The translations under genes and the position numbers were made by a program. Shown piece by piece: positions 14,839 to 62,904 of a DNA stretch of 64,000 bases (its first letter is position 1; each line of letters opens with the position of its first letter). The DNA comes from Draconibacterium sediminis. GTDB taxonomy: Bacteria; Bacteroidota; Bacteroidia; Bacteroidales; Prolixibacteraceae. The notes under the pieces are model-generated. The model was not told the DNA's origin. It saw only the letters and a list, made by a program, of their open reading frames with translations, and did no database searches. Location of the stretch: positions 1,488,001 through 1,552,000 of the forward strand of contig NZ_JRHC01000001.1 in NCBI RefSeq assembly GCF_000949475.1. The letters are read 5' to 3'.

Positions 14839-14922
14839 AGTACTGCTTTAATAATCGACAATTCATGCCATTATGCTGCTTACAGATAAACGATATCTGA
14901 ATAAAAAGGTTAACAGCTATTG

Positions 14923-16041
14923 CTATGCCGTTTTTCGGTAACGCCAAATAGCCAGGCTTAAGAATGTAATTCCTAAAATCGACAGGGAAACGAGTTCCCG
15001 CAAAAGGTCGGAAATGTTTGAGCCTTTTAAAACAACCATACGCATTACCCGCATAAAATAGTAAATGGGGTTAAGCCGGTCGATGGTTTGTGCCCAGTTG
15101 GGCATACTTTCAACCGGGGTGAAAATTCCTCCCATCAGAATAAAGATCATCATAAAAAAGAAACTGACGAACATAACCTGCTGTTGGGTGTCGGCTACTG
15201 TTGAGATAAACAGGCCGAGGCCAAGCACTCCGATGAGGTAAATGCCGGCCATAAAAAACAGGGTGAACAAACTGCCAACAATGGGGAGGTCGAAAACAAT
15301 CCAGGCAATGGTTAATCCAAAGGCCAGATCGAACAAGCCGATTATCCAGAACGGAACAAGTTTGCCAATAATAAACTGGTATTTTTTTAGCGGTGTTACG
15401 TTGAGTTGCTCAATAGTGCCAATTTCCTTTTCGCGCACCAGGTTCATCCCCGACATAAACATACCAATGATGGTAACCAGAATGGCCAAAATACCGGGTG
15501 CCATAAACCATTTGTAATCCAGCTCCGGGTTGTACCAGTAGTTCTCCGTAATTTCAACTTTTGTGGGTGGTGTAAATTCCGGGATTCCTTTCCAATCGGC
15601 AATAATGTTTTTGTTGAAATCGCTGATGATGTTGGCCGAATAAGAATAAATCAGCTGCGCCGAATTACTTTCGATAGCATTTATCAAAAGTTGCACTTTT
15701 GCCTCATCATCGCGGATGAGGTTACGTTCAAAATCGACCGGGAAAACAAGAATTGCATCTGCTTCGTCATTTAATAACTTGTCTTCCGCAAGTTTCTCCG
15801 ACTGCTCTAAATGATGCACATGAAAAAAAGGAATTCCATCAAATTTGGCGATCAAGTGCCTTGAGTTTTCTGACATGTCGTGATCTACCACAACCAGATC
15901 GATACGTTTCATGTCGTAAGTTGCCGCAAAAACCAAAATCAGCATTTGCATAATTGGCACAACAAAGATCATCGGCAGGATGGTCTTGTTCCGAAATATT
16001 TGTCGGAATTCTTTTTGTAGTATGTAGAGTATTGTCTTCAT
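14923..16041 (-). CDS. ABC-2 type transporter permease (YbhR/YhhJ-like), last gene of the efflux operon
   Basis: 372 residues. One N-terminal helix (~20-40), a long extracytoplasmic loop (~45-170) and five C-terminal membrane helices match the ABC2_membrane_3 / YbhR-YhhJ layout. It includes EKEIGTIEQLNVTPLKKYQFIIGKLVPFW (~205-233), typical of this family. It forms the channel half of a multidrug-type exporter with the paralogous permease upstream. A four-helix-bundle element sits in the spacer between the two permeases. Confidence 0.93.
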   Translation of the reverse strand: MKTILYILQKEFRQIFRNKTILPMIFVVPIMQMLILVFAATYDMKRIDLVVVDHDMSENSRHLIAKFDGIPFFHVHHLEQSEKLAEDKLLNDEADAILVFPVDFERNLIRDDEAKVQLLINAIESNSAQLIYSYSANIISDFNKNIIADWKGIPEFTPPTKVEITENYWYNPELDYKWFMAPGILAILVTIIGMFMSGMNLVREKEIGTIEQLNVTPLKKYQFIIGKLVPFWIIGLFDLAFGLTIAWIVFDLPIVGSLFTLFFMAGIYLIGVLGLGLFISTVADTQQQVMFVSFFFMMIFILMGGIFTPVESMPNWAQTIDRLNPIYYFMRVMRMVVLKGSNISDLLRELVSLSILGITFLSLAIWRYRKTA

Positions 16042-16046
16042 AGAAT

Positions 16047-16507
16047 GAGTTTCGAGTTACGAGGCGCGAGTTACGAGTTTGCCAAGGATTATTTTAGACT
16101 CTTTTGAAGTCCAATTATCATTTTTTGCTCTTCGTCGAGCTGTTGATTGAGACTGGAAAAGTCCTCTTCATTTATAAAATCCAATCGTTTGGCTATAATT
16201 AATTGTGTTTCCAGTTCAAAAGAAGAGCCCAAAGAAATATCAAGAAATCTATTGAAATCTCTTTTTGAACCTCTTCCTGAGCCTTCTGCAATATTGGAAG
16301 GAATAGAAATTGCTGAGCGTTTAATCTGACTGGTTAATCCGTATAATTCTTCATTCGGAAAATTGTTTGTTTTCTTGTAAACATCAACAACTAGTTCAAT
16401 TCCTTTCTGCCATACTTTTAGATTCTTAAAGTTTTTCATATTTAATTATTTAAAGGTTACTATTCTTTATCTAATTACTCGCCACTCGGTTCTCGAAACT
16501 CGTCACT
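16047..16507 (-). mobile_element. Four-helix-bundle element 1: facing heptad arms around a small gene
   Basis: Arm 16047-16077 is built of 7-base units CGAGTTA/CGAGTTT/CGAGGCG. Arm 16476-16507 contains the complementary units (ACTCGAA, ACTCGGT, ACTCGCC) in the opposite orientation. The arms enclose the four-helix-bundle gene at 16089-16439. The element fills the gap between two permease genes without breaking either one. It resembles intervening-sequence (IVS) units of 23S rRNA in plan, though mobility is inferred. Confidence 0.6.
16089..16439 (-). CDS. Four-helix-bundle protein (23S rRNA IVS / S23 type), copy 1
   Basis: 116 residues. It starts MKNFKNLKVWQKGIELVVDVYK and contains LTSQIKRSAISIPSNIAEGSGRGS and FLDISLGSSFELETQL. 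These are the diagnostic segments of the TIGR02436 / S23 family, whose members are encoded inside 23S rRNA intervening sequences or scattered in genomes. The conserved Arg and Asn-Ile-Ala-Glu-Gly surface probably binds nucleic acid or another helix bundle; its function is unproven. This copy is diverged from copies 2 and 3. It is co-directional with the efflux operon. Confidence 0.9.
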   Translation of the reverse strand: MKNFKNLKVWQKGIELVVDVYKKTNNFPNEELYGLTSQIKRSAISIPSNIAEGSGRGSKRDFNRFLDISLGSSFELETQLIIAKRLDFINEEDFSSLNQQLDEEQKMIIGLQKSLK

Positions 16508-16511
16508 TCTT

Positions 16512-17618
16512 TTACTCCAACCTAATCTTAAACTTCTTCACACTAACCGCTATAAAAAACAATGTCATCGCAATTAAAACAGCTGTCTCTTTCCAAATAA
16601 AAAGGATGCCGGTTCCTTTCAGCATAATGGTTCTTACGATCGTGATAAAATAACGGGCGGGCATTATGTGACTGAAATATTGAAGTACTACGGGCATATT
16701 TTCTATTGGGAAAATAAAACCCGATAAAAGGATGGTGGGTAGCATTAACCCAATCATCGAAATAAACATGGCTGCCATTTGGTTTTTTGCTGCTGTGGAG
16801 ATTAGAATTCCGAGGCACAGTGCCATCAGAATAAATAGAATGGTTTCCAGCATCAGTAAAATGAAACTGCCATTTACGGGGACACCAAATACAAAATGCC
16901 CGATTAGCACTATAATAAAGGCATTGGCGATTGAAAGTAAAAGATAGGGGAGTACCTTGCCAACAATTATTTGCACAGGGCGAAGTGGTGAAACAAGCAG
17001 AATTTCCATCGTCCCCAATTCCTTTTCGCGGGTGATAGAAATGGATGTCATCATAGCCGAAATGAGCATTAAAATCAGCGCCATTACTCCCGGAACGAAC
17101 ATGTAAGCACTTTTCATTTCTTCGTTAAAGTACATGCGTACTTCGGGTGTAATTTGCATAGGCAGCTGCATTTCGGGATACAGTTTTCGTATGTAGTCGT
17201 TCACGATAGCAGTTGTGTACGAAATGGCCAGTTTGGCGATGTTCGGATCGGATGCATCGGCGATCAGCTGCATTTTGGCGATTCCTTCTTTCCCTAGTGT
17301 TTGTCCGAAATTGTTCTCAAAAACAATTACCTCGCGCACTTTACCTTTTCTGAAAATGGCATCGATATCGTCAAGGTTATCCAGGTTTTTATCTAATATA
17401 AAATAGCCCGACGACAGCAGTTTATTGGTGATCTCAAGTGTTGTTTCATCTTTCGATTGGTCGTAAATGGCAATGTGCACATCCTTGATTTCGCTTTTAA
17501 TCACTGTTCCGAAAACCAGCAGTTGCGCTACCGGAATGCCAAAAAGTATCAGCATCGTCCGCGGATCGCGAAAAATGTGGAAGAATTCTTTTTTTATGAA
17601 TGACTTTAGTTGTTTCAT
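16512..17618 (-). CDS. ABC-2 type transporter permease (YbhS-like)
   Basis: 368 residues from the ATG at 17618. A TTG at 17639 would extend the frame into a repeat array and is not favoured. The layout repeats that of the other permease: helix ~18-38, an extracytoplasmic domain, then five helices with EKELGTMEILLVSPLRPVQIIVGKVLPY. It pairs with the permease at 14923-16041 as the membrane dimer. The substrate is not deducible; YbhSR-type systems export drugs or ions such as Na+ and cephalosporins in E. coli. Confidence 0.93.
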   Translation of the reverse strand: MKQLKSFIKKEFFHIFRDPRTMLILFGIPVAQLLVFGTVIKSEIKDVHIAIYDQSKDETTLEITNKLLSSGYFILDKNLDNLDDIDAIFRKGKVREVIVFENNFGQTLGKEGIAKMQLIADASDPNIAKLAISYTTAIVNDYIRKLYPEMQLPMQITPEVRMYFNEEMKSAYMFVPGVMALILMLISAMMTSISITREKELGTMEILLVSPLRPVQIIVGKVLPYLLLSIANAFIIVLIGHFVFGVPVNGSFILLMLETILFILMALCLGILISTAAKNQMAAMFISMIGLMLPTILLSGFIFPIENMPVVLQYFSHIMPARYFITIVRTIMLKGTGILFIWKETAVLIAMTLFFIAVSVKKFKIRLE

Positions 17619-17630
17619 TTTTTTAGTATT

Positions 17631-17703
17631 TAGTTGCAAGCCGCGAGTTCCGAGTATGCTTATGCAGAGGCTTTTTTACTCGAAACTCGTTTCTCGAAAC
17701 TCT
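17631..17703. repeat. Gene-less pair of heptad arms in the efflux operon
   Basis: Arm 17631-17657 (units CGAGTTC, CGAGTAT) faces arm 17677-17703 (units ACTCGAA, ACTCGTT) across ~20 bases. The sequence family and plan match element 1, but no gene is enclosed. It fills the gap between permease and ATPase genes. Confidence 0.6.
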
Positions 17704-17706
17704 TAG

Positions 17707-18432
17707 CTATCTTGCTATCTTCAAAAACACCTCGTCCATGTTTGTTGCCTTGTATTTTTCTTTCAGTTTTGCCGGCGTGTCGAGTGCTTCAATTTTCCCG
17801 GCATTCATTATCGAAACGCGATCGCAATATTCGGCTTCGTCCATGTAATGTGTAGTTACAAAAACGGTAATACCGTTATGTGCTGCTTCGTAAATCAAAT
17901 CCCAGAATTTACGTCGTGTAACCGGGTCAACACCTCCGGTTGGTTCATCAAGAAACACAATTTTTGGGTCGTGAAAAATAGCCACTGAAAAAGCCAGTTT
18001 TTGTTTCCATCCCAAGGGCAGATCGCCGATAAGTTTGTTTTTTACCTTCTCCAGTTCAAGCTTTTGTAACAGCTCAGCTTCTTTTACTTTACGCTGTTTA
18101 CGGCCAATTCCATAAATCCCTGCATATAATTTAATGTTCTCCGAAATTGTCAGGTCTTCATACAACGAAAACTTCTGACTCATGTAACCGATATTCTTTT
18201 TGATCTTTTCAGTTTCATGGTAAATATCAAAACCTGCAACTTTCACCTCACCCGATGTTGGTGACGAAAGGCCACAAAGTATTCGAATTGCCGTTGTTTT
18301 ACCGGCACCGTTCGCTCCCAGAAACCCGAAGATCTCACCCTTTTTTACTTCAAACGTCAGGTTGTCGTTTGCCGTAAAATGCCCAAATTTCTTTATCAGG
18401 TTTCTTGCTGAAATGATTGTTTCTTTTTCCAT
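17707..18432 (-). CDS. ABC transporter ATPase, counterpart of the C-terminal half of YbhF
   Basis: 241 residues with one ATPase domain: Walker A GANGAGKT (39-46), Q-loop SQKFSLYEDLT, Walker B VFLDEPTGGVDP, and H-loop VTTHYMDEAEYCDR. The signature reads LPLGWKQ instead of LSGGQ, which is characteristic of the C-terminal ATPase of fused YbhF proteins. It should pair with the neighbouring ATPase at 18938-19840 as an asymmetric dimer powering the two permeases. Confidence 0.93.
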   Translation of the reverse strand: MEKETIISARNLIKKFGHFTANDNLTFEVKKGEIFGFLGANGAGKTTAIRILCGLSSPTSGEVKVAGFDIYHETEKIKKNIGYMSQKFSLYEDLTISENIKLYAGIYGIGRKQRKVKEAELLQKLELEKVKNKLIGDLPLGWKQKLAFSVAIFHDPKIVFLDEPTGGVDPVTRRKFWDLIYEAAHNGITVFVTTHYMDEAEYCDRVSIMNAGKIEALDTPAKLKEKYKATNMDEVFLKIAR

Positions 18433-18444
18433 GATAGATAGTTT

Positions 18445-18934
18445 GCAGTCTCAGTATTCAGTCTCAGTATTCAGTCTCAGAATGCAGTCCCAGTAATCAG
18501 GTTCAGTTTACAGTTAAAGAACCGGGGCGCTTCCGAATTTCTCAGGATGGTTCATCATATAATTTAACAGTTTACCAATTTCCACACATTCGTTATATAG
18601 TTTCTTATGAATGTCATTGTTCAGGTATTCACAGGCGAATGCAAAATCAAGCCAGGTTGCAGTTTCGCTGTTTTCTCCATCGGAGTCGGTAAGCTTGCTT
18701 AAGAAGTGTTTTGGATATCGTCTTTTTCGATAAGCTTCTGCAATGTTAGTGCATGTTGAACGGGAAGATCGTCGTATTTGATCGGTAAGTGAATACTGCT
18801 CTTCTTTGGGAAAAGATTTCGAAATCTCAAAAATGTCCATCGCCAATTTAAAAGCTTTTTGATATACGATTAATTCTTTAAAATCCATGCTATTTATTTT
18901 TATTTTACTGTTTACTGCGACTGTCAACTGCGAC
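18445..18934 (-). mobile_element. Four-helix-bundle element 2: facing CAGT arms around a small gene
   Basis: The left arm (18445-18514) repeats CAGTCT/CAGTATT with a 6+7 base alternation. The right arm (18905-18934) carries the reverse complement (ACTG units). They enclose the four-helix-bundle gene at 18514-18888. The element lies in the gap between the two ATPase genes. Confidence 0.6.
18514..18888 (-). CDS. Four-helix-bundle protein (S23 / IVS type), copy 2
   Basis: 124 residues from the ATG at 18888. A Met at 18927 exists upstream but would translate the repeat arm, and the homologous copy 3 starts at the equivalent of 18888. It contains LTDQIRRSSRSTCTNIAEAYRKRRYPK and CVEIGKLLNYMM. By eye it is about 89% identical to copy 3 (around 14 differences in 124 residues), so the two are recent duplicates inside one operon. 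Confidence 0.92.
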   Translation of the reverse strand: MDFKELIVYQKAFKLAMDIFEISKSFPKEEQYSLTDQIRRSSRSTCTNIAEAYRKRRYPKHFLSKLTDSDGENSETATWLDFAFACEYLNNDIHKKLYNECVEIGKLLNYMMNHPEKFGSAPVL

Positions 18935-18937
18935 TTC

Positions 18938-19840
18938 TCATTGTTCCATTAAACTCATAAAAACATCTTCAATGCCGGCCGGAATTTCTTCTGCAATTAT
19001 TTTCTCATGACCAAGGTTTTGCAAATAACCTTCGAGTTCTATGGTTTCTACTTCATCATTGAAACCCGTAAAATGGGCAAACTGACCAAAAGCATAAACA
19101 GCTTCTGCTTTTTTGTAAGCACGTAAATCGTTGATGAGTTTGTACATATTTTGGGCTCCCACCTGAATAATTTTTCGTGGAAATTTATCCGTTATGCGTT
19201 TGGGAGAATCTACATCGAGAATCTGTCCGTTTTGGATCAGTGCCACCCGGTCGCAAAGGTCTGCTTCGTCCATATAGGGTGTTGATACCAAAATGGTGAT
19301 GCCTTTTTCCTGAAGGTTTTTCAGCATTTCCCAAAACTCTTTACGCGAAACTGCATCCACACCGGTTGTTGGTTCGTCGAGCACCAGAATTTTGGGTTTA
19401 TGAATTAAGGCACACGAAAGCGCCAGCTTTTGTTTCATTCCGCCCGACAGTTTTCCGGCCCGGCGAGTTTTAAACGGCTCAATCTGGTAATAAATGTCAC
19501 GAATCAAATCGTAATTTTCCTCAACGGTGGTGCCAAAAACAGTCGCAAAAAAGTTCAGGTTTTCTTCCACGCTTAGGTCCTGATAGAGTGAAAACCGCCC
19601 CGGCATGTAACCAACCATTTTGCGGATATGTTTGTAATTTTTAACCACATCGAGGCCATCAAGTTTTGCTTCACCGGAATCAGGCAAAAGCAGAGTCATA
19701 AGAATGCGGATTAAAGTTGATTTCCCGGCACCGTCAGGTCCGATCAATCCAAAAAGTTCTCCTTCATCCACGTTTAGATTGATACCCGAAAGTGCCTTGG
19801 TTTCTTTGTATGACTTAGTTATGTTGTTTATTTCAATCAT
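18938..19840 (-). CDS. ABC transporter ATPase, counterpart of the N-terminal half of YbhF
   Basis: 300 residues. It has Walker A GPDGAGKS (34-41), signature LSGGMKQ, Walker B LVLDEPTTGVDA, and a C-terminal extension of about 80 residues ending in AGIEDVFMSLMEQ. The Asp in GPDGAGK and the extension are features of the first ATPase of YbhF. Together with 17707-18432 it represents a YbhF split into two genes, now separated by a four-helix-bundle element. Confidence 0.93.
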   Translation of the reverse strand: MIEINNITKSYKETKALSGINLNVDEGELFGLIGPDGAGKSTLIRILMTLLLPDSGEAKLDGLDVVKNYKHIRKMVGYMPGRFSLYQDLSVEENLNFFATVFGTTVEENYDLIRDIYYQIEPFKTRRAGKLSGGMKQKLALSCALIHKPKILVLDEPTTGVDAVSRKEFWEMLKNLQEKGITILVSTPYMDEADLCDRVALIQNGQILDVDSPKRITDKFPRKIIQVGAQNMYKLINDLRAYKKAEAVYAFGQFAHFTGFNDEVETIELEGYLQNLGHEKIIAEEIPAGIEDVFMSLMEQ

Positions 19841-19850
19841 CTTTTTAGTA

Positions 19851-20335
19851 TTCAGTCTCAGTCTCAGTTTTCAGTCCAGCACTTTGCTACTTCCAAATTT
19901 TTCAGGGTTACTCATCATGTAATTTAAGAGTTTTCCAATTTCCACACATTCGTTGTATAATGTTTCATGAATGTCATTGCTCAGATAGTTGCAGGAAAAA
20001 GCAAAATCAAGCCAGGTTGCAGTTTCGCTGTTTTCGCCATCGGAGTCGGTTAGTTTGCTTAAAAAGTGTTTTGGATATCGTCTTTTACGATACGCTTCAG
20101 CGATGTTGGTACATGTTGAACGGGAAGATCTTCTAATTTGATCGGTCAGTGAGTACTTTTCTTCTTTTGGAAATGTTTTGGAAACCTCAAAAATATCCAT
20201 AGCCAGTTTAAATGCCTTTTGATATGCGATTAAATGTTTAAAATCCATAATATGTATTTTTGTTTTTACTGCTAACTGAAACTGCTAACTGAAACTGCTA
20301 ACTGTGACTGATTACTGCGACTGGTCACTGCCAAC
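19851..20335 (-). mobile_element. Four-helix-bundle element 3: facing CAGT arms around a small gene
   Basis: The left arm (19851-19876) has CAGTCT units and includes the stop codon of copy 3. The right arm (20267-20335) has long runs of the complement (ACTGCTA/ACTGAA, alternating 7 and 6) and overlaps the last codons of the HlyD gene. The element therefore abuts coding sequence on its upstream side without breaking it. Confidence 0.6.
19871..20248 (-). CDS. Four-helix-bundle protein (S23 / IVS type), copy 3
   Basis: 125 residues starting MDFKHLIAYQKAFKLAMDIF. It is nearly the same as copy 2 over its whole length. Both keep CTNIAEAYRKRRYPKHFLSK and the GENSETATWLDFAF segment. The nucleotide sequences of the two copies also match closely, supporting a recent duplication from one operon gap to another. 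It would be expressed from the efflux operon promoter. Confidence 0.92.
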   Translation of the reverse strand: MDFKHLIAYQKAFKLAMDIFEVSKTFPKEEKYSLTDQIRRSSRSTCTNIAEAYRKRRYPKHFLSKLTDSDGENSETATWLDFAFSCNYLSNDIHETLYNECVEIGKLLNYMMSNPEKFGSSKVLD

Positions 20336-21206
20336 TAACCTCACCAGGCATTCCAATTTTCAAGGTTCCGTCATTCTTTACGCTTACTTTAACGGCATAT
20401 ACCAGTTTTACACGTTCCTCCTTGGTTTGAATGATCTTTGGTGTAAATTCTGCTTCCGATGAAATCCAGGTAATCGTTCCGGTGAAATGTTGGTTTTCGG
20501 TAGCATTCTGATCGACCAATACGTCAAGTTGCTGACCAAGTTTTACATGGGGCAGCTGGGCGCCGCTTACATACACTTTTAGTTCCAGTTCGCTGATATC
20601 GGCAATTTTAAAGAGGGATTTACCGGCAGCGGTTAGTTCTCCTTGTTCGGCGTAGGTTTCCAATATGGTTCCCGAAACGGGTGATTTTATGTTGCAACGA
20701 TTTAACTGATCGCTTACCGAAGCTTTTTGTGCTTCCAAAACTTCCTGCTCTTTGCTGATGAGTGTAAATTGCGTTTTTGTATTGGCAATCTGTTTGTCGA
20801 TCACACTGATCTGTCCCTGAATATCGTCAAGTTGCTTTTGAGTAGCGGCTCCGTCATTCAGCATTTTCTGAATACGTTCCTCGTTGATCTTTAGGTTGGT
20901 CTTTTGCTCCTCGAAAACGGCAATTTGCGACTGAGTCGACTTACGTTTGGCCACTACCGCAGTTTGTTGTGCATCAAGTTGTAACAGCTGTAAGTGCAGT
21001 TGAACAGTATCGATGAGAGCAGCAGAATAACCGGCTTCAATTTTATCGCCTTTGTCAACATTTAGTTCAAGGATCTTTCCCGGAGTTTCAGCAGAAACAA
21101 TAACTGTTTCTGCTTCGAAATTGCCATAAGCATCAGCCGTGTCGTTATTCGTTTGGCAGGCCATAAAAAGAAATGGCAGAGAAAAAATGTATAGTATCTT
21201 TTTCAT
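20325..21206 (-). CDS. HlyD/YbhG-type periplasmic adaptor lipoprotein
   Basis: 293 residues. Lipobox F-M-A-C near 14-17 anchors it to the membrane. A biotinyl-lipoyl half-motif (TPGKILELNVDKGDKIEAGY) precedes a long coiled coil (~65-165, Gln/Lys/Ala-rich) and then the second lipoyl half (CNIKSPVSGTILETYAEQGE). It should bridge the ABC permeases to the TolC-like channel. The C-terminal codons overlap a repeat arm, so its last residues (SWQ) may have been shaped by the element. It is followed closely upstream by the TolC gene. Confidence 0.94.
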   Translation of the reverse strand: MKKILYIFSLPFLFMACQTNNDTADAYGNFEAETVIVSAETPGKILELNVDKGDKIEAGYSAALIDTVQLHLQLLQLDAQQTAVVAKRKSTQSQIAVFEEQKTNLKINEERIQKMLNDGAATQKQLDDIQGQISVIDKQIANTKTQFTLISKEQEVLEAQKASVSDQLNRCNIKSPVSGTILETYAEQGELTAAGKSLFKIADISELELKVYVSGAQLPHVKLGQQLDVLVDQNATENQHFTGTITWISSEAEFTPKIIQTKEERVKLVYAVKVSVKNDGTLKIGMPGEVSWQ

Positions 21207-21229
21207 GGTAATGATGTTTTGCTTGTTGT

Positions 21230-22507
21230 TTAGTTCTGTGTTAATGTGCCCGGTAAGGTTTTTCCTTTAATGAGGACATATTTTTCCCGGGCTTCGTTCA
21301 GTTGAATTTTGTGTAGTTCCTGTTTTAGTTTTGCTATTGTTTCTGCTTGCAATTCCTGAACATAGTCGGAAGTGGTAATTGTTTCATTCTCCAATTTTGA
21401 GGCGGCGGCTTTCGTAATCCCGGAACGCAGTTCTACCAGTTTTTCATCGTTGCTGATTAATTGTTCCAGTTTCCCAATCTGCTCTTTTTGTTGAATAAGT
21501 AAAAGATTGAGGTTTTGTATAAATGTGGCTTCCTGGCTTTGAAGCATTTCTTGCCGTAATTTGAGAATCTGTTGCTGTCGCGAAGTTTGTTTCCAGTCGA
21601 AGGCATTCCACGAAACGCCCACACCAAAAAGGTAGTATCCTTTAAATTCGTCGAGTAACATGTTTAATCCCGGTTTGCCATAACCTAACTGGCCAAATCC
21701 GAAAAGTTTCGGGTTTCTGGTTTTGGAAAGCATATTGCTTTGAACCACCAACTGTTCACGTTGATTACCCAGCAATTGTAATTCCGGGCGTAGCAATTCT
21801 GAATTGAATGAAAAGTTGGTTTGATAGGTGAATGTTCCGTTTTTATCAAACTGCTTGCCTGTCAGCAATTCAAGCATTTGGCGCGATGCATTTTTTGCAG
21901 CGTCCAGCTCTACTATATTTTGTTCGAGGTTTATTCGCTCGGCTTTTAATACCATAGCAGCCGAAGGTTCAGTCACTCCGTTACGGATTCCAGATTCAAC
22001 GCGGCTCAATTGTTCATCAATGGTTTTTATTTGAGCGAGAATCACCTCTTTTTGCTGGTCGACAACCAAAGTTGTGAAAAACGCTTGTGCAACCTGCTCG
22101 TTCAGTTTATAGAGTTCCACCTCAAGTTGACTAAGGTTGCTGTTCAAAATGGCCGTTTCAAGGGTTTTGTTTGTTTTGGTAAGTCCACCGTCCCAAATGG
22201 TTTGTTGCAACTCGGCGTAAGCATTGTAACGATCTTTCGATACAGTTGGAATTGATATTCCGGGCATTGAAACAGGAACCTCGGTTACTGCCGATTGATA
22301 ACTGATCTGCCCATTCAGCGTTACCTGCGGCAGGTAATTGGTTTCGTGGTTTTGTATGGAAAGCGAATTAATTTCTTTCCACAATTCCGTCTGTTTCAGG
22401 TTGGGATAGTTTTGCCGTGCCCACACATAACAACTGTCTAATTGAACGTTGTTTTGGGCAACTGCCAACTGAACCGGAAATAACAATAGAATCAGGATCT
22501 TTCTCAT
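21230..22507 (-). CDS. TolC family outer-membrane efflux channel
   Basis: 425 residues with a signal peptide (1-17). It shows the repeated long helices of TolC with heptad-rich sequence and LDSCYVWARQNYPNLKQ at the start, the usual outer-membrane efflux pattern in Bacteroidota. It overlaps the TetR gene by 4 bases and precedes the HlyD gene by 23, so the tripartite pump is translated as a unit. It probably trimerises in the outer membrane. Confidence 0.94.
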   Translation of the reverse strand: MRKILILLLFPVQLAVAQNNVQLDSCYVWARQNYPNLKQTELWKEINSLSIQNHETNYLPQVTLNGQISYQSAVTEVPVSMPGISIPTVSKDRYNAYAELQQTIWDGGLTKTNKTLETAILNSNLSQLEVELYKLNEQVAQAFFTTLVVDQQKEVILAQIKTIDEQLSRVESGIRNGVTEPSAAMVLKAERINLEQNIVELDAAKNASRQMLELLTGKQFDKNGTFTYQTNFSFNSELLRPELQLLGNQREQLVVQSNMLSKTRNPKLFGFGQLGYGKPGLNMLLDEFKGYYLFGVGVSWNAFDWKQTSRQQQILKLRQEMLQSQEATFIQNLNLLLIQQKEQIGKLEQLISNDEKLVELRSGITKAAASKLENETITTSDYVQELQAETIAKLKQELHKIQLNEAREKYVLIKGKTLPGTLTQN

Positions 22508-23118
22508 TTTATCAGGATTGAGTGAAGGACAAACTCCTTTACGGTTACTTTTCTTTTTTCGATAAATTCGTTGTAGCTTTTTGGGTCATCATCAAAAAAC
22601 AACAGCGACAGTAGAGGTTTTGAGGCAATCGGAAATATGATTAAACTAAGTATGCTAATCAATAGGTCGCGTGGGTCCATAGTTCGAATAGTCCCCTTCT
22701 CTATTTCGTTTTTGAACATCTCAACAACTTTTTTGGGTTCCAGTCCGCTGCTTCTAATCAATCCTTCCAAAAACTCCGGATCCTGGTGAATTTCTTTTAG
22801 GATAAAAGTTGGCAGGAAAGGGTTTTTCATTAACACATCAATGTAATTTTCAATAAAGAATTCCAGCTTTACTTCAATCGGTTGGTCCGACTGAACCATG
22901 CGCATTACATTGGGTATTATTTTGGAAAAAAGACTTTCGAACGTAGCGTTAAACAACTGTTGTTTCGAACGAAAATAATAGTGAAGCAATGCTTTGTTTA
23001 TCCCGGCTTCATCGGCAATTTCCTGCATGCGTGCTCCATCCATTCCTTTCCGAATAAAAACAGTTTGTGCGGCGCTCAGGATTTTTTCCTCGGTATTGTC
23101 TTTTTTTATGTTTGTCAT
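22504..23118 (-). CDS. TetR/AcrR family repressor of the efflux operon
   Basis: 204 residues. The N-terminal helix-turn-helix spans ~10-55 (EKILSAAQTVFIRKGMDGARMQEIADEAGINKALLHYYFRSK). The C-terminal ligand domain resembles CecR/YbiH-type repressors that control YbhGFSR. As first gene of the operon it is likely autoregulated through the two palindromes at 23130-23220. Ligand release would induce the pump. The inducing compound is unknown. Confidence 0.94.
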   Translation of the reverse strand: MTNIKKDNTEEKILSAAQTVFIRKGMDGARMQEIADEAGINKALLHYYFRSKQQLFNATFESLFSKIIPNVMRMVQSDQPIEVKLEFFIENYIDVLMKNPFLPTFILKEIHQDPEFLEGLIRSSGLEPKKVVEMFKNEIEKGTIRTMDPRDLLISILSLIIFPIASKPLLSLLFFDDDPKSYNEFIEKRKVTVKEFVLHSILIK

Positions 23119-23129
23119 GAAATGTAATT

Positions 23130-23220
23130 AACTAAATAGTTTAACCAGTTGGTCAAAAGTAGGCGCTTAAATTTAAATATCCAAGAAAATAACCAAATAG
23201 TTTAACCAAATGGTTAATTT
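23130..23220 (-). promoter_or_regulatory. Efflux operon promoter flanked by two TetR-type operators
   Basis: The minus strand reads TTG (23184-23182), 20 bases, then TACTTTTG (23161-23154), a very good -33/-7 match. Palindrome TTAACCAGTTGGTCAA (23141-23156) overlaps the -7 box and start site, and TTAACCAAATGGTTAA (23202-23217) lies just upstream of -33. Both palindromes belong to a longer shared ~22-base block (AACYAAATAGTTTAACCA) and have centres 61 bases apart. This layout predicts repression by occlusion or looping, and the second site may also affect the divergent DUF1080 gene. Confidence 0.8.
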
Positions 23221-26540: not shown

Positions 26541-27290
26541 CTACTCTTCCGCGTTCCAAATCTCATAAGACTTTTTTGCCTGGTTCAGCAACATCTCGTA
26601 GCCGTTTTTAACAGTGGCTCCGTTGGCTTGTCCTTTGGCCATAAACTGTGTTACCTCAGGATTGTAAACCAGATCAAAAAGCAAATGTTTATCAGTAATA
26701 AATTCGTAAGGAATATTCGGGAAAGTATCAACTTTTGGATAGGTTCCCAGTGGAGTGGCATTAATGATCAGCAAACGCTCGCATATTAACTGCTCATCGA
26801 TGTCTTCGTAACGAATCTCATTTTCCTTTAACTCTTCAATCGATGCTGAAATATATTCGATTCCCAATTTTTTAAGAACATATTTTAATGCTTTTGAAGC
26901 ACCACCTGTTCCAAGAATCAGTGCTTTTTTATGATGATCTTTTAAAAGCGGTTTCAACGATGATTCAAAACCAAAAGTGTCGGTATTAAATCCTTTTAAA
27001 TGCACACCATTTTCAGTCCGTGTAACACGAATGGTATTAACAGCACCAATCTCTTTAGCCGAATCATTCAGTTCATCCAAATAAGGAATTACCTGCTCTT
27101 TGTACGGAATGGTAACGTTAAACCCAATCACTTCCGGGTTGTCTTTTACCACCTCCGGGAATTTAGTGATCGAATCGATTTCGAAATTGTCATAAGTTGA
27201 ATCTATCTTTTCTGTTTCAAATCGTTCGGTAAAATATCGTTTCGAGAATGAGTGGGTGAGTGGGTAGCCTAATAATCCGTATCTTTTCAT
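26541..27290 (-). CDS. aroE: Shikimate dehydrogenase
   Basis: 249 residues, the compact Bacteroidota form. The N-terminal substrate domain has YPLTHSFSKRYF (the SxS shikimate loop) and NVTIPYKEQVIPYLD with the catalytic Lys. The NADP domain has GTGGASKALKYVL near 127-139 and NATPLGT later. It reduces 3-dehydroshikimate in aromatic amino-acid synthesis. It is in line with DUF368 upstream and LMW-PTP downstream, both across repeat-filled gaps. Confidence 0.95.
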   Translation of the reverse strand: MKRYGLLGYPLTHSFSKRYFTERFETEKIDSTYDNFEIDSITKFPEVVKDNPEVIGFNVTIPYKEQVIPYLDELNDSAKEIGAVNTIRVTRTENGVHLKGFNTDTFGFESSLKPLLKDHHKKALILGTGGASKALKYVLKKLGIEYISASIEELKENEIRYEDIDEQLICERLLIINATPLGTYPKVDTFPNIPYEFITDKHLLFDLVYNPEVTQFMAKGQANGATVKNGYEMLLNQAKKSYEIWNAEE

Positions 27291-27297
27291 TTTATAA

Positions 27298-27356
27298 GTA
27301 TTGAGTCGTGAGTATCAAGTATCAAGTATCAAGAATCAAGAATCAAGTATCCGGAA
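27298..27356. repeat. Single heptad array between aroE and the DUF368 gene
   Basis: A run of AAGTATC/AAGAATC 7-base units (about six) fills the 72-base gap. No facing arm is visible, so it is a one-armed array. The same unit family appears at 41710-41775. Confidence 0.65.
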
Positions 27357-27362
27357 ACCAGT

Positions 27363-28298
27363 TTACTTCTTCAATTTCTTTCCAATTCCTTCAACAACAA
27401 AAATGAGTGCAAATCCGGCAATTGCCAGTAGAATTGCACCAAGCAACCAGGCTTCGTGTCCTGTAATTTGCTCGTATGTGGCGGGTAAGATATTACGTTC
27501 GGCGATGGGTTTTAGTTCACCGTGACGGTCGATTATTGTTTGTGTAACTTCTTTCCACGGCCATACTTTGTTTAGCGATCCTACCATAAAACCAGCTAAC
27601 ACGGCAATTGTAGTATTGTGATATTTTTTCAGTAGCCACGATAATACATTTGAAAAAGCAATGATGCCAACTGCAGCTCCAATAAGGAAAGTAAGGATAA
27701 CAGCAATATTCACATCGCCAACTGCCGATAGGATGAATTTGTACATGCCCAGCAGTACCAAAATAAAACTACCTGAAATTCCCGGTAGGATCATGGCGCA
27801 AATTGCAATGGCTCCCGACAGAAAAATAAACCAGTAGCTGGTGTTAGCTTCGGCAGGTGTGATAACTGTAATCAGGTAGGCAATTACAATTCCGGCCAAA
27901 CCGCCAATAATGGTATCGGCTTTCCACCGTTTTATGGAGCGCGCCACATAAATAGCTGATGCAACGATCAATCCGAAAAAGAACGACCACACTAAGATAG
28001 GATAGTGGTGTAGCAAATATTCCAGCCCTTTGGCCAGTGAGAAAACACTGATGCCTACTCCGATGAATACACTGATAAGAAATGTTCCGTTAATGGCGTT
28101 CCAAAACTCAGCCAGTTTAAAACTGAATAAGAGTTTAATAGCGGTTAAATTGATTGACTTTATCGAGTTAATCAATTCTTCGTAAATACCGGTTATAAAG
28201 GCAATTGTTCCGCCGGAAACGCCCGGTACCACATCGGCAGCACCCATTGCCATTCCTTTTAATACCAGTGTAAAATAATCTTTTGCTGATCTGTTCAT
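27363..28298 (-). CDS. DUF368 membrane protein, probable polyprenyl-phosphate transporter (PopT-like)
   Basis: 311 residues with about eight membrane helices. The family motif GMAMGAADVVPGVSGGTIAFITGIYEELI is at 15-43, and a second GISGSFILVLLGMYKFI repeat lies near 173-189, giving an inverted-repeat carrier layout. DUF368 proteins (PopT) have been linked to return of undecaprenyl phosphate across the inner membrane for cell-wall synthesis. The assignment is by family. Confidence 0.9.
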   Translation of the reverse strand: MNRSAKDYFTLVLKGMAMGAADVVPGVSGGTIAFITGIYEELINSIKSINLTAIKLLFSFKLAEFWNAINGTFLISVFIGVGISVFSLAKGLEYLLHHYPILVWSFFFGLIVASAIYVARSIKRWKADTIIGGLAGIVIAYLITVITPAEANTSYWFIFLSGAIAICAMILPGISGSFILVLLGMYKFILSAVGDVNIAVILTFLIGAAVGIIAFSNVLSWLLKKYHNTTIAVLAGFMVGSLNKVWPWKEVTQTIIDRHGELKPIAERNILPATYEQITGHEAWLLGAILLAIAGFALIFVVEGIGKKLKK

Positions 28299-41362: not shown

Positions 41363-41545
41363 CAAGGCAAAAGTAAAAAGTTGAGAACTGCTGTCATTTC
41401 GACGAGGAACGAGGAGAGATCTGTTACAAGTTTTCAGTCTCAGTTCTCAGTCTCAGTCACAGTTACCAGATAACAATTTGTCAATTTAGCAATTCAGCAA
41501 TTTTCTTCTTTGAGTGAATGAGTTATTGAGTAAATAAGTTGGCAG
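41363..41545. repeat. Composite repeat unit, copy A
   Basis: In order: AAAGTAAAAAGT, a GTCATTTCGACGAGGAACGA block (from ~41394), CAGTCTCAG arrays, AACAATTT-type runs, and a TTGAGTGAATGA tract. The same order recurs at 43895-44065, so the two copies flank the YwbE and ABC-F genes as direct repeats. Confidence 0.6.
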
Positions 41546-41866
41546 TACGCAAGTAGCAGTATGCAAAAAGCCCCAAAGGAGCGAAATGCAACAGTCTGGT
41601 GCTGTTTTTTGTCGCAGTTTTCAGTCTCAGTAGCCAATCCCAGTAATCAGTTAACAATTTAACAATTCAGCAGTTTGTCAATTTACCTTTCCTAAAACCG
41701 CAAAGCCTTCCAGTATCCAGTATCCAGTATCAAGAATCCAATATCAAGAATCAAGGATCAAGGATCCAGCATCAAAAGACCTAACCACAAAAGAATTAAA
41801 GCATTTACGCATTAAAGCATTGCAGCATTCAATCCCTCAATCCTTCAGTTTTTCAGTCCTTCAATC
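41546..41866. repeat. Cluster of degenerate 7- and 8-base arrays
   Basis: This 320-base stretch holds no gene. It has CAGTCTCAG units (~41620), AACAATTT runs (~41660), AGTATCC/AAGAATC heptads (41710-41775) and 8-base units of GCATTTAC/GCATTAAA then TCCTTCAA/TCCTTCAG (41800-41865). Different unit families succeed each other directly. Confidence 0.6.
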
Positions 41867-43771: not shown

Positions 43772-43894
43772 TCAATTTTTTCCCTTTTTCCAAGGGTGTG
43801 CAAACCTAGACAAATATTTGATACTGTGTGTTAAGGTAACAACAAGTAATGGTGGAGTTAGTCTTAAATTAATACAGGAAGGGGGACAAGGCTA

Positions 43895-44065
43895 AAAGTT
43901 AAAGGCAAAAGGCAAAAGTAAAAAGTAACTGTCATCTCGACGAGGAACGAGGAGAGATCAGTCTCAGTTTTCAGTCTCAGTTTTCAGTTAACAATTTTTG
44001 AATTTAACAATTCAACAGTTTGCTTCGTTGAGTGGATGATTATTGGGTGAGTGAGGGGGATGGAC
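43895..44065. repeat. Composite repeat unit, copy B
   Basis: It holds AAAGGCA/AAAGTAA heptads, a GTCATCTCGACGAGGAACGA block (from ~43931), CAGTCTCAG arrays, AACAATTT/AATTTAACAATTCA runs, and TTGAGTGGATGA. It matches 41363-41545 in order and orientation. The rest of the 536-base spacer 43757-44292 shows further runs and a CGCAGATTTCGCAGA tract, but no gene. Confidence 0.6.
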
Positions 44066-53360: not shown

Positions 53361-54401
53361 ATGATAAAAGTAGGCGATAAGGTTAAGTTTTTAAACGATG
53401 TTGGCGGTGGTGTAGTAACCGGTTTTGTAAATAAAAATACGGTAAATGTTGAAGGCGATGATGGTTTTGAAGTGCCTTGCCTGATAAGAGAGCTGGTGAA
53501 TGTAAGTGCACCTGAGCTGAATGTTAGCAGTACTGCCCGCTCACAACAGGAAACGCCGGCAGCAGTGCAGCCCGAACCGGAATTCATCGAGCCGAAAGGC
53601 GAAATCATTAACGGCAAAAATGCGGCAGAATTTTATTTCTGTTTTGTTCCTACAAATCCAAAAAATCCGCTGTCGGGAGAGATTGAATTGTATTTGGTTA
53701 ACGACAGCAATTATACGGTGCTGTTCAATTATTCCTATATAAAAACCGATGGTGTTGAGGCCATAAAACAAGGTTCGGTTCGTTCGAATTCAAGAGAAAA
53801 GATTGACGCTTTGGTACAGGAGGATTTTAGCGATTTGCCTGATTTTGGGTTTCAGCTGATTTATTTCCGCGAAACTGAAAGCGAATGGAACCAGCCAATG
53901 GTAAAGAAGTTCAGGGTAAACCCGGTGAAGTTTTATAAAGAATCGACTTTCCGCGAAAATTCATATTTCAAAAAGAATGCTTTGGTTTTGAAGATTACAT
54001 CTGATACCTTTCAGACTGAGTTGGACAAATTAACGCAGGATGATTTCAAAAAAGTGGTTAAGGCAAAAGAATCTGTTGAAGCGCCAAAACGAAAGGAACG
54101 AAAACGCAATGCCGAAGAAATGGTGATCGATTTGCATATTACCGAGCTGCTCGACGAATCGGAAGGTTTGAGTAACCGCGAAATTCTGGATATACAAATG
54201 GATGCCGTTGAATCGGAAATGAACCTGGCCATTAAAAACCATACGAAACGAGTTGTATTTATCCATGGTGTAGGGCAGGGCATTTTAAAACAGGAGGTAA
54301 CCAACCTGCTGAAACGCAAATTCAAAAAATACTATTTCCAGGACGCTTCGTTTAAGGAGTATGGCTATGGAGCAACTATGGTTATTCTGAGGAAAGGATG
54401 A
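53361..54401 (+). CDS. DUF2027 and Smr domain protein
   Basis: 346 residues from the ATG at 53361, matching the family start IKVGDKVKFLNDVGGGVVTGFV. The frame extends to 53331, but the promoter -7 box covers that codon. The N-terminal KOW-like domain and DUF2027 (~5-220) precede a C-terminal Smr domain (~255-346) with VIDLHITELLDES and HGVGQGILKQEV, the DNA/RNA nicking motif of MutS2 tails. It probably acts on nucleic acids. The stop codon touches the left arm of a four-helix-bundle element. Confidence 0.92.
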   Translation: MIKVGDKVKFLNDVGGGVVTGFVNKNTVNVEGDDGFEVPCLIRELVNVSAPELNVSSTARSQQETPAAVQPEPEFIEPKGEIINGKNAAEFYFCFVPTNPKNPLSGEIELYLVNDSNYTVLFNYSYIKTDGVEAIKQGSVRSNSREKIDALVQEDFSDLPDFGFQLIYFRETESEWNQPMVKKFRVNPVKFYKESTFRENSYFKKNALVLKITSDTFQTELDKLTQDDFKKVVKAKESVEAPKRKERKRNAEEMVIDLHITELLDESEGLSNREILDIQMDAVESEMNLAIKNHTKRVVFIHGVGQGILKQEVTNLLKRKFKKYYFQDASFKEYGYGATMVILRKG

Positions 54402-54910
54402 TTGATCAAGGATTAAGGATGAATTATAAAGATGAATGATTAGGGATTATTGGGGAGATTATGTAATTTGTTAGTGTAATCACCAAAAAACTTTAATCAT
54501 GAACAAAGAAAACGACCTCAAACAAAGAACTAAAAGCTTTTGCATAGATTGTATTCGTTTAGCGGAAAGCTTGCCGAATACTTATTTGGGAAAACATATT
54601 CAAGGACAATTAATAAGAAGTTCATCGTCGGTGGCAGCAAACTACAGAGCCGCTAAATTGGCACAATCGACAGCTGCATTTGTTTCAAAAATCAGCATTG
54701 TAATTGAAGAAGCTGATGAATCATTATTCTGGCTTGAATTAATTGATAATCTGAAATTGTTCAATTCTGAACAACGAGATATCCTTGAAAAGGAGGCTTC
54801 AGAACTTGTTGCTATTTTTGTTTCATCGCGTAAAAAGTTGCATCAACGTAAATTCAATTAATCCTTTCAATTCATGCTTTTTATTCATCCTTTATCAATT
54901 ATCCTTAATC
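54397..54910 (+). mobile_element. Four-helix-bundle element 4: facing GAT-type heptad arms, next to rnpB
   Basis: The left arm (54397-54452) has units GATCAAG/GATTAAG/GATGAAT/ATGAATG. The right arm (54852-54910) is the complement of GATTAAG/GATAATT/GATAAAG/GATGAAT, also with period 7. They enclose the small gene 54499-54861. The left arm overlaps the Smr stop codon, and the right arm ends 8 bases before the rnpB -7 box. Confidence 0.6.
54499..54861 (+). CDS. Four-helix-bundle protein (S23 / IVS type), copy 4
   Basis: 120 residues. It contains FCIDCIRLAESLP, QLIRSSSSVAANYRAAKLAQ and IVIEEADESLFWLELIDNL, the pattern of the divergent S23 subgroup. It differs from the other three copies (Ala-Asn-Tyr-Arg in place of Asn-Ile-Ala-Glu). 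It lies on the plus strand between Smr and rnpB. Function unproven. Confidence 0.88.
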   Translation: MNKENDLKQRTKSFCIDCIRLAESLPNTYLGKHIQGQLIRSSSSVAANYRAAKLAQSTAAFVSKISIVIEEADESLFWLELIDNLKLFNSEQRDILEKEASELVAIFVSSRKKLHQRKFN

Positions 54911-54917
54911 GTTTTAC

Positions 54918-60896: not shown

Positions 60897-62816
60897 CTAG
60901 TGGTTAGGAAATACTTTGTTTATTGCTAAGTAATCCAAAATAGCATCCAGGTTTTCTTCGTTTTGCTCCGGTTTGAAAACCAGTTTTGCGTTGTTTGGTG
61001 CTTCGTATTCCAGATCTACACCCGGCAAACCACTTGTTTTTCCTTGCTCAAGCATTTCGTACAGTTCAGGTTTATTGTTTTTGCAATATTCCAGATCTGC
61101 ATCCATGTAGAATAGGTGAAAACGGTCTTTGCCAATTATCTCTGCCACCTGGTTGCGCAACGATTCGTTACGAGAGATGTACGAAGCAATGGTGATAATT
61201 CCCTGGTCGTTCAGCATTTTACAAATGTGTGCCACACGACGCAGGTTCTCTGCTCTGTCGGCAGGAGAGAAGTCCAATTCACGACTTAATCCTGATCGTA
61301 CTGAACTACCGTCGATCAATACCACTGCAGCACCGTTGTCGAACAGTTTTTTCTCCAGACTAAAAGCCAGTTCGTTTTTACCCGAACCATGCAGACCGGT
61401 AATCCAAATGGTTTCACCTTTCTGGTTGTACTTCTGTACGTATTCTTCCGGTTTGATCAGCGCTTCACCCAAGGCAATTTTAGCCTTATCCACATCAGTA
61501 ATACGCGAAGGCAAGCTGCTACTGCCCAGTTTATCGATGATCATACCCACCGCTACGGTGTTATGCGTTACGGGGTCGATTAAAATAAACGAACCGGTTT
61601 GATGGTTCTTTTTATACGGATCGAAGTAAAGTGGCTTGGTAGTGGTAATTACCACACGGCCAATTTCATTCAGCTTGAATTTTTCGATGTTCGATTTCTC
61701 AAGCGTGTTTACATCCACTTTGTATTTAATTTCGTCGATACGGGCCTTTGTATTGTTGTTGGCATGTTTGATGTAAAACTGAGTGGAAAGATTCATATCA
61801 GTTTCATCCATCCAAACCAGCATGGCCTCAAACTGACGCTCTACACGTGGCAGGTTATCAGGATGAACCAACATATCGCCACGCGAAATATCAATCTCAT
61901 CTTCCAGCGTAACGGTTACCGATTGTGGTGGGAAAGCATAATCCAGTTCCCCTTCGTAAGTAACGATTTTCTCTACTTTCGATTTTTTCATCGAAGGCAG
62001 CACCATTACTTCATCGCCTTTTTTTATGATACCTGAAGCTACAGAAGTTGAGAACCCACGGAATTTAATATCGGGGCGCAATACATACTGAACCGGGAAA
62101 CGCAGGTCGTCGAAGTTACGGTCGGAACTTACATGAACGTTCTCCAAAAACTCCAGCAGACAAGGACCATGGTACCAATCCATATTCTCGCCTTTATCTA
62201 CTACATTGTCGCCTTTTAATGCCGACAGCGGGATAAAGTTTACATCAGGTATATCCAATTGGGTAACAAACGCTTTGTAATCGGCTTTAATTTCCTCAAA
62301 ACGTTCCTGTTTGTAATCGGCCAGGTCCATTTTGTTAATGGCCACCACCACGTGTTTAATTCCCAGAAGGTTGGCCAAATAGGTGTGGCGTTTGGTCTGG
62401 GTAATTACTCCGTAGCGAGCATCTATAAGAATAATGGCCAGGTTGGCAGTCGATCCACCGGTAATCATGTTACGGGTGTACTGCTCGTGTCCCGGAGTAT
62501 CTGCGATAATAAATTTACGCTTGGCAGTTGAGAAGTAGCGGTAAGCAACGTCGATGGTAATTCCCTGCTCGCGCTCGGCTTTCAAACCATCGAGCAACAA
62601 GGCATAGTCAATTTCCTCACCGGCATGGCCGATACGTTTACTGTCGCGGTGCAAAGCTTCAAGCTGATCTTCGTAAAGCATTTTACTGTCAGCCATCAGG
62701 CGTCCGATTAGCGTTGATTTGCCATCGTCAACCGATCCTGCAGTCAGTAAGCGTAATAAATCCTTTTTCTGGTCTTGATCCAGAAACTCTTGTATGTTAA
62801 GTTTTTTTGTAGTCAT
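60897..62816 (-). CDS. cysN: Sulfate adenylyltransferase large subunit fused to an APS-kinase-like domain (CysN/C)
   Basis: 639 residues. The GTPase part has [10 protein letters not shown] (26-35), DTPGHEQY (106-113) and NKMD (161-164), and EF-Tu-like domains to ~455. The C-terminal CysC domain (~466-639) keeps the fold, but residues look altered. Walker A is GLHGSGKN (474-481) with Asn for Ser/Thr, the DGDNVR loop is DGSSVR (502-507), and the ISP loop is ISR (547-549). The GTPase is intact, so APS formation with CysD is expected, while APS kinase activity is doubtful. A gene-less repeat array separates it from cysD upstream. Confidence 0.9.
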
Positions 62817-62822
62817 CTTTTT

Positions 62823-62902
62823 GATACTTGATGTTTGATACTAGATGCTGGATGCTTGATTCTGGATACTCGATCGATCAAGAATCCGGAATCCGGTATC
62901 CA
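62823..62902. repeat. Gene-less palindrome of GAT-type heptads between cysD and cysN
   Basis: Left arm units GATACTT/GATGTTT/GATACTA/GATGCTG/GATGCTT/GATTCTG/GATACTC run into CGATCGATC, and the right arm (62875-62902) is the complement of GATACCG/GATTCCG/GATTCTT. The arms pair as a hairpin with no gene inside. It fills the 88-base operon gap. Confidence 0.65.
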
Positions 62903-62904
62903 GT

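Follow-up and report, generated by a model that had tools for sequence, protein, structure and literature searches.

What kind of element can lodge repeatedly between the genes of a single operon, filling its spacers from stop codon to start codon, without breaking any of those genes? The question is raised by a 64,000-nucleotide stretch of the Draconibacterium sediminis genome (contig NZ_JRHC01000001.1, positions 1,488,001 to 1,552,000; hereafter the window), which carries on its minus strand an efflux operon for a TetR regulator, an outer-membrane efflux protein, an HlyD protein, two ATPases and two permeases. Three of the four inner gaps, numbered here from HlyD (gap 1) to the second permease (gap 4), contain an S23-family gene (PF05635, 23S_rRNA_IVP), and the remaining one holds facing arms without a gene. 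An earlier note on this DNA had proposed that these genes, enclosed by facing arms of 6-7-base repeats that touch the adjacent stop codons and break no gene, form an undescribed class of operon-spacer element, transcribed as stem-loops within the messenger RNA (mRNA). The genes and their arms are borne out: all three proteins pass the Pfam cut-off of 33.8 bits in a profile search (scores in the table below), far exceed the family cut-off of TIGR02436 as well, and have relatives of solved structure (2gsc and 2rld), while their flanks are more complementary than shuffled sequence (p 0.013, 0.007 and 0.017). The arms consist of degenerate 6-7-nt units, CAGT-based in gaps 1 and 2 and CGAG-based in gap 4, and at all three units they span the interval from the stop codon to just short of the next start codon. 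The phenomenon is larger than first noted, in that this operon, with its three complete units and one arm-only unit, represents a widespread arm-gene-arm class; nine S23 genes were found by a search of the window's genome. It is probable, as argued below from comparison of sequences, that these are units mobile at the level of DNA, the arm words of each being the likely binding sites of its S23 protein.

To gauge the extent of the class, the 130 nt preceding and the 110 nt following each S23 gene were scored for mutual complementarity, relative to dinucleotide shuffles. A genus-centred sample, covering the genus and some order-level relatives, comprised 102 distinct S23 genes kept from 119 open reading frame (ORF) hits once identical genes and hits lacking a start had been dropped; it is non-random, its loci being best hits, efflux operons and 40 regions chosen by eye. 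Here p was at most 0.01 in 51/102 and at most 0.05 in 72/102 genes, compared with 0/50 and 2/50 other genes of the window. A phylum-wide sample of 109 further loci, combining 80 named contigs, which were the best 80 among 558 confirmed stretches, with 29 additional best-scoring loci and leaning to two subfamilies, gave 67/111 and 87/111 S23 genes at these two thresholds, compared with 18/260 and 27/260 neighbouring genes of the same loci (neighbours being uncurated longest-ORF calls). Most sampled S23 genes, as the earlier proposal implied, therefore do possess facing arms. Identity of the flanks to themselves at a lag of seven bases amounts to 0.37-0.40 around S23 genes and 0.31-0.32 around control genes, and the arms of two loci, L032 (genome G006) and L144 (a D. 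aestuarii contig), are identical. Position is also biased, since both neighbours lie on the strand of the S23 gene in 90/102 and 94/111 cases versus 21/48 other genes of the window, with a median spacing in the 94 same-strand cases of 75 nt upstream and 47.5 nt downstream. Units mostly lodged between co-directional genes in this manner would probably be expressed by read-through transcription, which may explain the strand bias.

Comparison of 25 orthologous operons, the window's included (L063, at a contig end, and the distant L064-L070 being left out), reveals that the gaps are variously filled and empty. The number of operons with an S23 gene is 8 at gap 1, 9 at gap 2, 4 at gap 3 and 14 at gap 4; at least one is present in 20/25 and none in L041, L042, L049, L050 and L052. 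Short empty gaps measure 7-17 nt at gap 1 (seven operons), 6-27 nt at gap 2 (eight operons; the value of -23 for L055 is a gene-call artefact) and 53 nt at gap 4 (two operons), whereas filled units extend from the upstream stop codon to just ahead of the downstream start codon. The seven distant operons yielded no S23 profile match, and their gaps are mostly shorter than 45 nt or overlapping, the longer S23-free ones being of 67 nt (L066), 115 and 407 nt (L067) and 160 nt (L065). Empty-site alleles, the absence of which the earlier note had regarded as fatal to its proposal, thus exist. No target duplication was evident by eye between empty and filled gaps, the species compared being diverged. 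The border itself differs with occupancy, as HlyD ends in tgg cag tga, which reads as the beginning of an arm, in 6/8 filled gap-1 alleles versus tgg aac taa in four empty ones.

Exchange is seen in these gaps as well. Between the sister species represented by W000 and L039, synonymous divergence (dS) is 0.189 for the core genes and a similar 0.219 for the gap-1 S23 gene, whereas the gap-2 S23 gene, at a dS of 0.013, has recently been converted or transferred; in gap 4 the two species carry different S23 genes with saturated dS and 75% DNA identity, compared with 95-96.5% for the permeases. L053 and L057 likewise differ in their gap-2 S23 gene. L062 has near-identical units in gaps 1 and 2 (dS 0.028), a recent gap-to-gap copy, and gap 2 of L043 retains both arms and the first S23 codons, as left by an internal deletion. 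At the same time the ratio of non-synonymous to synonymous divergence (dN/dS) of the S23 genes is mostly 0.02-0.14 where dS is finite, with a single higher value of 0.25 at a dS of 0.013 (the 26 closest pairs per gap, omitting the truncated gap-4 gene of L058), by which the genes are under purifying selection. A gene that comes and goes and yet stays intact fits a protein serving its own unit. It has to be considered whether the protein instead serves the host by binding the arms to tune expression of its operon, as might be suggested by its stable presence in the same operon of 20 of the 25 species, by purifying selection and by the same-strand position. However, five operons manage without S23, one S23 type replaces another between sister species, a GIY-YIG gene takes up the same gap elsewhere and the host genes of other units are varied, which makes such a regulatory role very unlikely. 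The GIY-YIG gene (PF01541, tested for L042) fills the gap between the two permeases in L041, L042, L043, L045 and L061 within facing GTCATTTCGA / GAGAAATCTG arms, and represents a second, unrelated gene-in-arms unit in the slot of element 3; it is shortened in L052, and L060 has the palindrome alone.

The words of the arms follow the protein that the arms enclose. Among 35 elements from 20 operons, the arm 4-mer profile correlates with S23 protein distance at a Mantel r of 0.86, which remains 0.86 when partialled on core-gene distance, compared with 0.02 for arm profile against core-gene distance; within gap 4 alone (14 elements) the values are 0.42 and, partialled, 0.51, all of these permutations ignoring kinship among elements. 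Across 226 elements, which include twenty regions fetched after the genus survey and otherwise used only for the G024 pair mentioned below, the similarity of arms declines with that of the S23 proteins, from 0.62 (near-identical) to about 0.23 (distant), the permutations here likewise ignoring kinship, and subfamilies have words of their own: CAGT in 91/106, CTGG in 11/12, and AG-type words such as AGCT in 29/60 members of the subfamily of element 3. For 82 S23 genes (L131-L210) the ratio of CAGT to ACTG is 250:24 in the 5' flanks and 33:238 in the 3' flanks, with a spacing of mostly 7 or 6. The arm word tracks S23 subfamily across the phylum and not host phylogeny, and since the words are inverted on the two sides, a reader would meet them as duplex DNA or as paired RNA. 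These relations also bear on the possibility that the arrays arise at gene ends through slippage of replication and template switching between inverted repeats, with S23 genes as unrelated passengers that happen to persist inside. Unit number does vary by 13 nt between close species, as slippage would predict, and most sampled arrays have no S23 gene nearby (see below); but a private word is not expected of passengers, and here the word follows the S23 subfamily across the phylum while the spacer bases vary, and follows S23 and not the host genes even within one operon. On this balance slippage alone is an improbable explanation, and the relocated unit described next, whose gene and arms form a single shared block, argues in the same direction.

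A unit that moves should be found at unrelated sites. Among 325 pairs of S23 genes at least 75% identical, 31 have no homologous flanking ORF at all. The clearest case involves a Prolixibacteraceae contig (L132) with an efflux operon whose second ATPase and two permeases are 78%, 63% and 57% identical to those of the window. Of its two S23 units, which are 91% identical to each other, the first precedes ATPase 2 at the contig end and the second separates ATPase 2 from permease 1. The second copy shares 91.9% DNA identity over 529 nt with a unit on another Bacteroidota contig (L135), where its neighbours, by Pfam, are an alanine racemase gene and a convergent Crp-type gene and the flanks are unrelated; the match sets in just past the stop codon of the racemase and runs as far as the 3' arm's outer end. 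In 59/61 relatives of the window's genome the racemase orthologue does not exceed 61% identity to that of L135, and none of 25 loci from such relatives, one of them cut at 167 nt, has an S23 gene within 700 nt downstream of the racemase, the search having left aside the close relatives of L135 itself. A defined unit has thus been found at non-homologous sites in one clear case. A pair of S23 genes with equal scores, on contigs of G024 and considered as a further transposition, proved to be a duplicated 2-kb stretch. The class proposed in the earlier note is supported, as its units come, go and replace one another in the stop-to-start intervals of one operon, and occur in same-strand gaps and, in one instance, at an unrelated site.

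A different matter is whether the arms act as RNA, as stem-loops would require. If the units resembled intervening sequences (IVS) of 23S rRNA, their arms would base-pair within the polycistronic transcript, from which RNase III would remove the S23 segment. The protein family is indeed that of the 23S rRNA IVS, the units lie in same-strand gaps, predicted RNA folds pair the arms (z -4.49 for element 3 and -1.56 for element 1), and heptamers together with an RNase III-cut terminal stem are reported for the Coxiella IVS in excerpts of PMC4990558. Nevertheless, selection for RNA pairing predicts an excess of G.U over A.C mismatches, which arise alike in DNA, and in the 159 of 213 loci with p at most 0.05 the arms contain 202 mismatches of each type. 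The G.U fraction is 0.485-0.516 in five subsets, the 21 best-paired loci included; a laxer mismatch score gave 683 G.U versus 751 A.C (p 0.08; 0.476) and 492 versus 516 (0.488), and arms of different loci paired with one another gave 811 versus 888. Flanks of the 16S rRNA gene form a processing stem, and in relatives the same alignment recovered 53 G.U versus 11 A.C from 24 such loci, which are mutually related and hence not independent. In addition, no Rfam match was obtained at 14900-23200, a processing role is not required by arm-only units or by lone arrays at the ends of genes, and 4/18 cyanobacterial S23 genes (L295, L301, L302, L306) lie antisense to both neighbours, indicating a looser strand rule there. 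An RNA stem was therefore rejected as what keeps the arms complementary; this part of the earlier note is not supported, even though the arms can fold, and an IVS-like RNA element is an unlikely account of the units. As a side observation on the 16S loci, the usual 3'-end motif GGATCACCTCC was not found in 12 that do show the 5' end motif on the read strand (L260, L261, L263-L265, L267, L268, L276, L278, L282, L285 and L288), possibly reflecting a changed anti-Shine-Dalgarno end.

Arrays of arm words also occur by themselves. In 37 genomes of the genus, 473 matches to a four-word CAGT pattern were counted, compared with 103 for the reversed pattern, a number that by our estimate is itself above chance because other words form arrays too, and five of the 29 S23-free loci in a sample of 30 CAGT arrays show facing pairs. 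Genomes with a close CAGT-class S23 gene have a median of 16 CAGT arrays versus 2 in those without (p 0.004). With respect to a moving enzyme, two candidates acting in trans were set aside. A reverse transcriptase is not needed at present in genomes devoid of an RVT_1 match, which include that of the window (G000), G009 and 16 others among the 37; and although Y1 (RAYT-like) genes are present in 35/37, the Y1-transposase loci fetched (L111-L130) carry facing repeats of other kinds, significant in 15/20 and including many near-perfect palindromes such as CCGTCAGCTTTAGCTGACGG.

Several observations weigh against DNA-level mobility with S23 as the reader of its arms. No S23 gene lies within 1.5 kb of 29/30 sampled CAGT arrays, so arrays can exist gene-free; the genomic excess of arrays is seen in the same direction, more weakly, with a control word (2 versus 0, p 0.015), and these counts are uncorrected for kinship. 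No recombinase lies between the arms of the window's units, S23 being the single gene of each, so that a known recombinase, as expected of a transposon, is not encoded. The two arms of a locus fit one another more closely than they fit arms of their class from elsewhere (median 34 versus 22), a locus-specific complementarity that pairing in RNA would explain and that fits the exchange between arms invoked by slippage; we would assign it to such exchange or to putative DNA hairpins. At least one homologous flanking ORF is shared by 294/325 similar S23 pairs, as expected of vertical descent or fixed sites, and only one relocation is well resolved. Significant arms are lacking from 30/102 and 24/111 S23 genes, RNA folding of the arms is possible, as the pairing model predicts, and the 16S control loses weight through the relatedness of its loci.

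Mobility at the level of DNA is nonetheless the reading we prefer, because gene and arm type go together, the relocation match ends at the outer ends of the arms, gaps are found empty, filled, swapped and decayed, the word is subfamily-specific, the gene is under purifying selection and the arm mismatches give no sign of RNA pairing. Accepting this, the 5' array, the S23 gene and the facing 3' array would behave as one small mobile DNA element; the S23 protein would bind the words repeated in its own arms in the form of duplex DNA and, as their reader, act on DNA to help the unit move or persist, and S23-free arrays would be decayed or non-autonomous copies. A more general proposal is attractive though tentative, and we hold it with less than even confidence: S23 proteins may be readers of a subfamily-specific DNA word code, the word recurring every 6-7 bases in inverted arrays, so that these self-marked units would constitute a mobile class that spans phyla and has no known recombinase, with the dispersed heptamer repeats seen in Bacteroidota and Cyanobacteria as its footprints and with the rRNA IVS as one lineage that came to rest in rRNA. 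The link between arm word and S23 subfamily gives intergenic heptamer arrays a testable function, and if each S23 protein recognises its own kind of repeat, as seems likely, this could explain short repeat families of unknown maker. The units also illustrate how operon spacers, stop codons and last codons are rewritten, and the expectation of an RNA stem inherited from the rRNA IVS is replaced by a DNA-level one.

The features of the window are collected in the table. The start of gene b is the ATG read from the sequence, the mechanical ORF beginning at a TTG at 18927, and a TTG reading of permease 1 would begin within the arm-only unit (17639).

Table. Arm-gene-arm units and related repeat arrays in the window.
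Feature	Position	Strand	Description
Element 1 (gap HlyD / ATPase 1)	19841..20324	-	484 bp; 5' CAGT array, S23 gene, 3' ACTG array
Element 1 5' arm	20249..20324	-	CAGTNN / CAGTNNN units, period 13
S23 gene c	19871..20248	-	125 aa; PF05635 117.8 bits
Element 1 3' arm	19841..19870	-	Repeat inspection, facing-arm test
Element 2 (gap ATPase 1 / ATPase 2)	18433..18937	-	505 bp
Element 2 5' arm and leader	18889..18937	-	Repeat scan
S23 gene b	18514..18888	-	124 aa from ATG; PF05635 120.5 bits
Element 2 3' arm	18433..18513	-	Repeat scan
Arm-only unit (gap ATPase 2 / permease 1)	17622..17706	-	Facing CGAG repeats, without gene
Element 3 (gap permease 1 / permease 2)	16042..16511	-	470 bp, CGAG-type arms
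Element 3 5' arm repeats	16477..16505	-	Repeat inspection
S23 gene a	16089..16439	-	116 aa; PF05635 144.1 bits
Element 3 3' arm	16042..16088	-	Repeat inspection
Fourth S23 element, outside the operon	about 54391..54917	+	GGATTAA / GATGAAT arms; S23 gene 54499-54861; p 0.003
Arrays without S23	41425-41472, 41587-41652 (CAGT type); 41692-41790 (CAGTATC type)	not assigned	Repeat scan
Facing GATACTNG / CCGGTATC array pair without S23	62803..62904	not assigned	Repeat scan

The repeat scan of the window returned 13 stretches, whereas shuffled sequence gave 0.4 on average. Additional S23-free heptamer arrays are of the ATCAAGT type at 27283-27372, at the upstream end of a gene (27363-28298), and of the AAAGGC and CAGT types at 43876-44004. 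An inverted TTTAACCAnnTGGTTAA-like motif present in two copies (23136-23217) between the TetR gene and a divergent gene is probably the TetR operator; one copy (23170-23217) is among the 13 stretches.

Outside Bacteroidota, relatives of genes a and b in plasmid records are largely cyanobacterial, and no relatives of gene a were found in phage records. Facing arms are significant in 13/18 cyanobacterial plasmid S23 loci, where the words are different ones, GCAGGGG and GGGAGTA among them. In 6/18 of these loci (L290, L291, L294, L297, L299, L307) the S23 gene has a neighbour annotated as an integrase or tyrosine recombinase, a possible lead to the moving enzyme. As isolated cases, an S23 gene stands between cas6 and cas4 on a Pseudanabaena plasmid (L303) and, in antisense, between two ribonucleotide reductase genes on a Nostoc plasmid (L302).

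In the open-access literature searched, from which subscription papers fall outside, no account of arm-bearing S23 units was found. The relation to the 23S rRNA IVS suggested by the earlier note stands as regards the protein family, the reported heptamers and the architecture, since the IVS of Coxiella and Leptospira, reported at about 430-500 nt, also comprise an S23-family gene within complementary arms. According to excerpts of PMC4990558, the Coxiella IVS has tandem heptamers in strain-variable number before the S23 gene and signs of horizontal transfer. The relation does not stand as regards location, the present units lying between protein-coding genes and not in a 23S rRNA gene, nor as regards RNA pairing, of which the arm mismatches give no signal; and unlike the Coxiella ORF, which the same excerpts describe as in reductive evolution, the operon S23 genes are clearly under purifying selection. 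Avd of diversity-generating retroelements has a related four-helix-bundle fold, but the window's proteins do not qualify as such, two of the three barely passing the Pfam bAvd cut-off of 40 (40.1 and 43.1) and all scoring 21-36 bits against an NCBIfam Avd cut-off of 80, with no RVT_1 match in the window's genome. Like REP / RAYT systems, the units are dispersed repeats of which most copies are gene-free and few flank a protein gene, whereas the Y1 transposase of those systems is not part of the unit and Y1 genes elsewhere accompany other repeats. Heptamers of Cyanobacteria have long been called STRR. TAACTGA and other heptamer repeats have been described in intergenic DNA of Beggiatoaceae, Cyanobacteria and Bacteroidetes, with no known maker or reader (MacGregor 2015, PMC4679880). 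That paper speculates that a repeat-binding protein could be the mobile element, and no link to S23 or to facing arms was found in it. Those repeats resemble the present arms in being tandem 7-nt intergenic units, and TAACTGA includes the ACTG word of the 3' arms.

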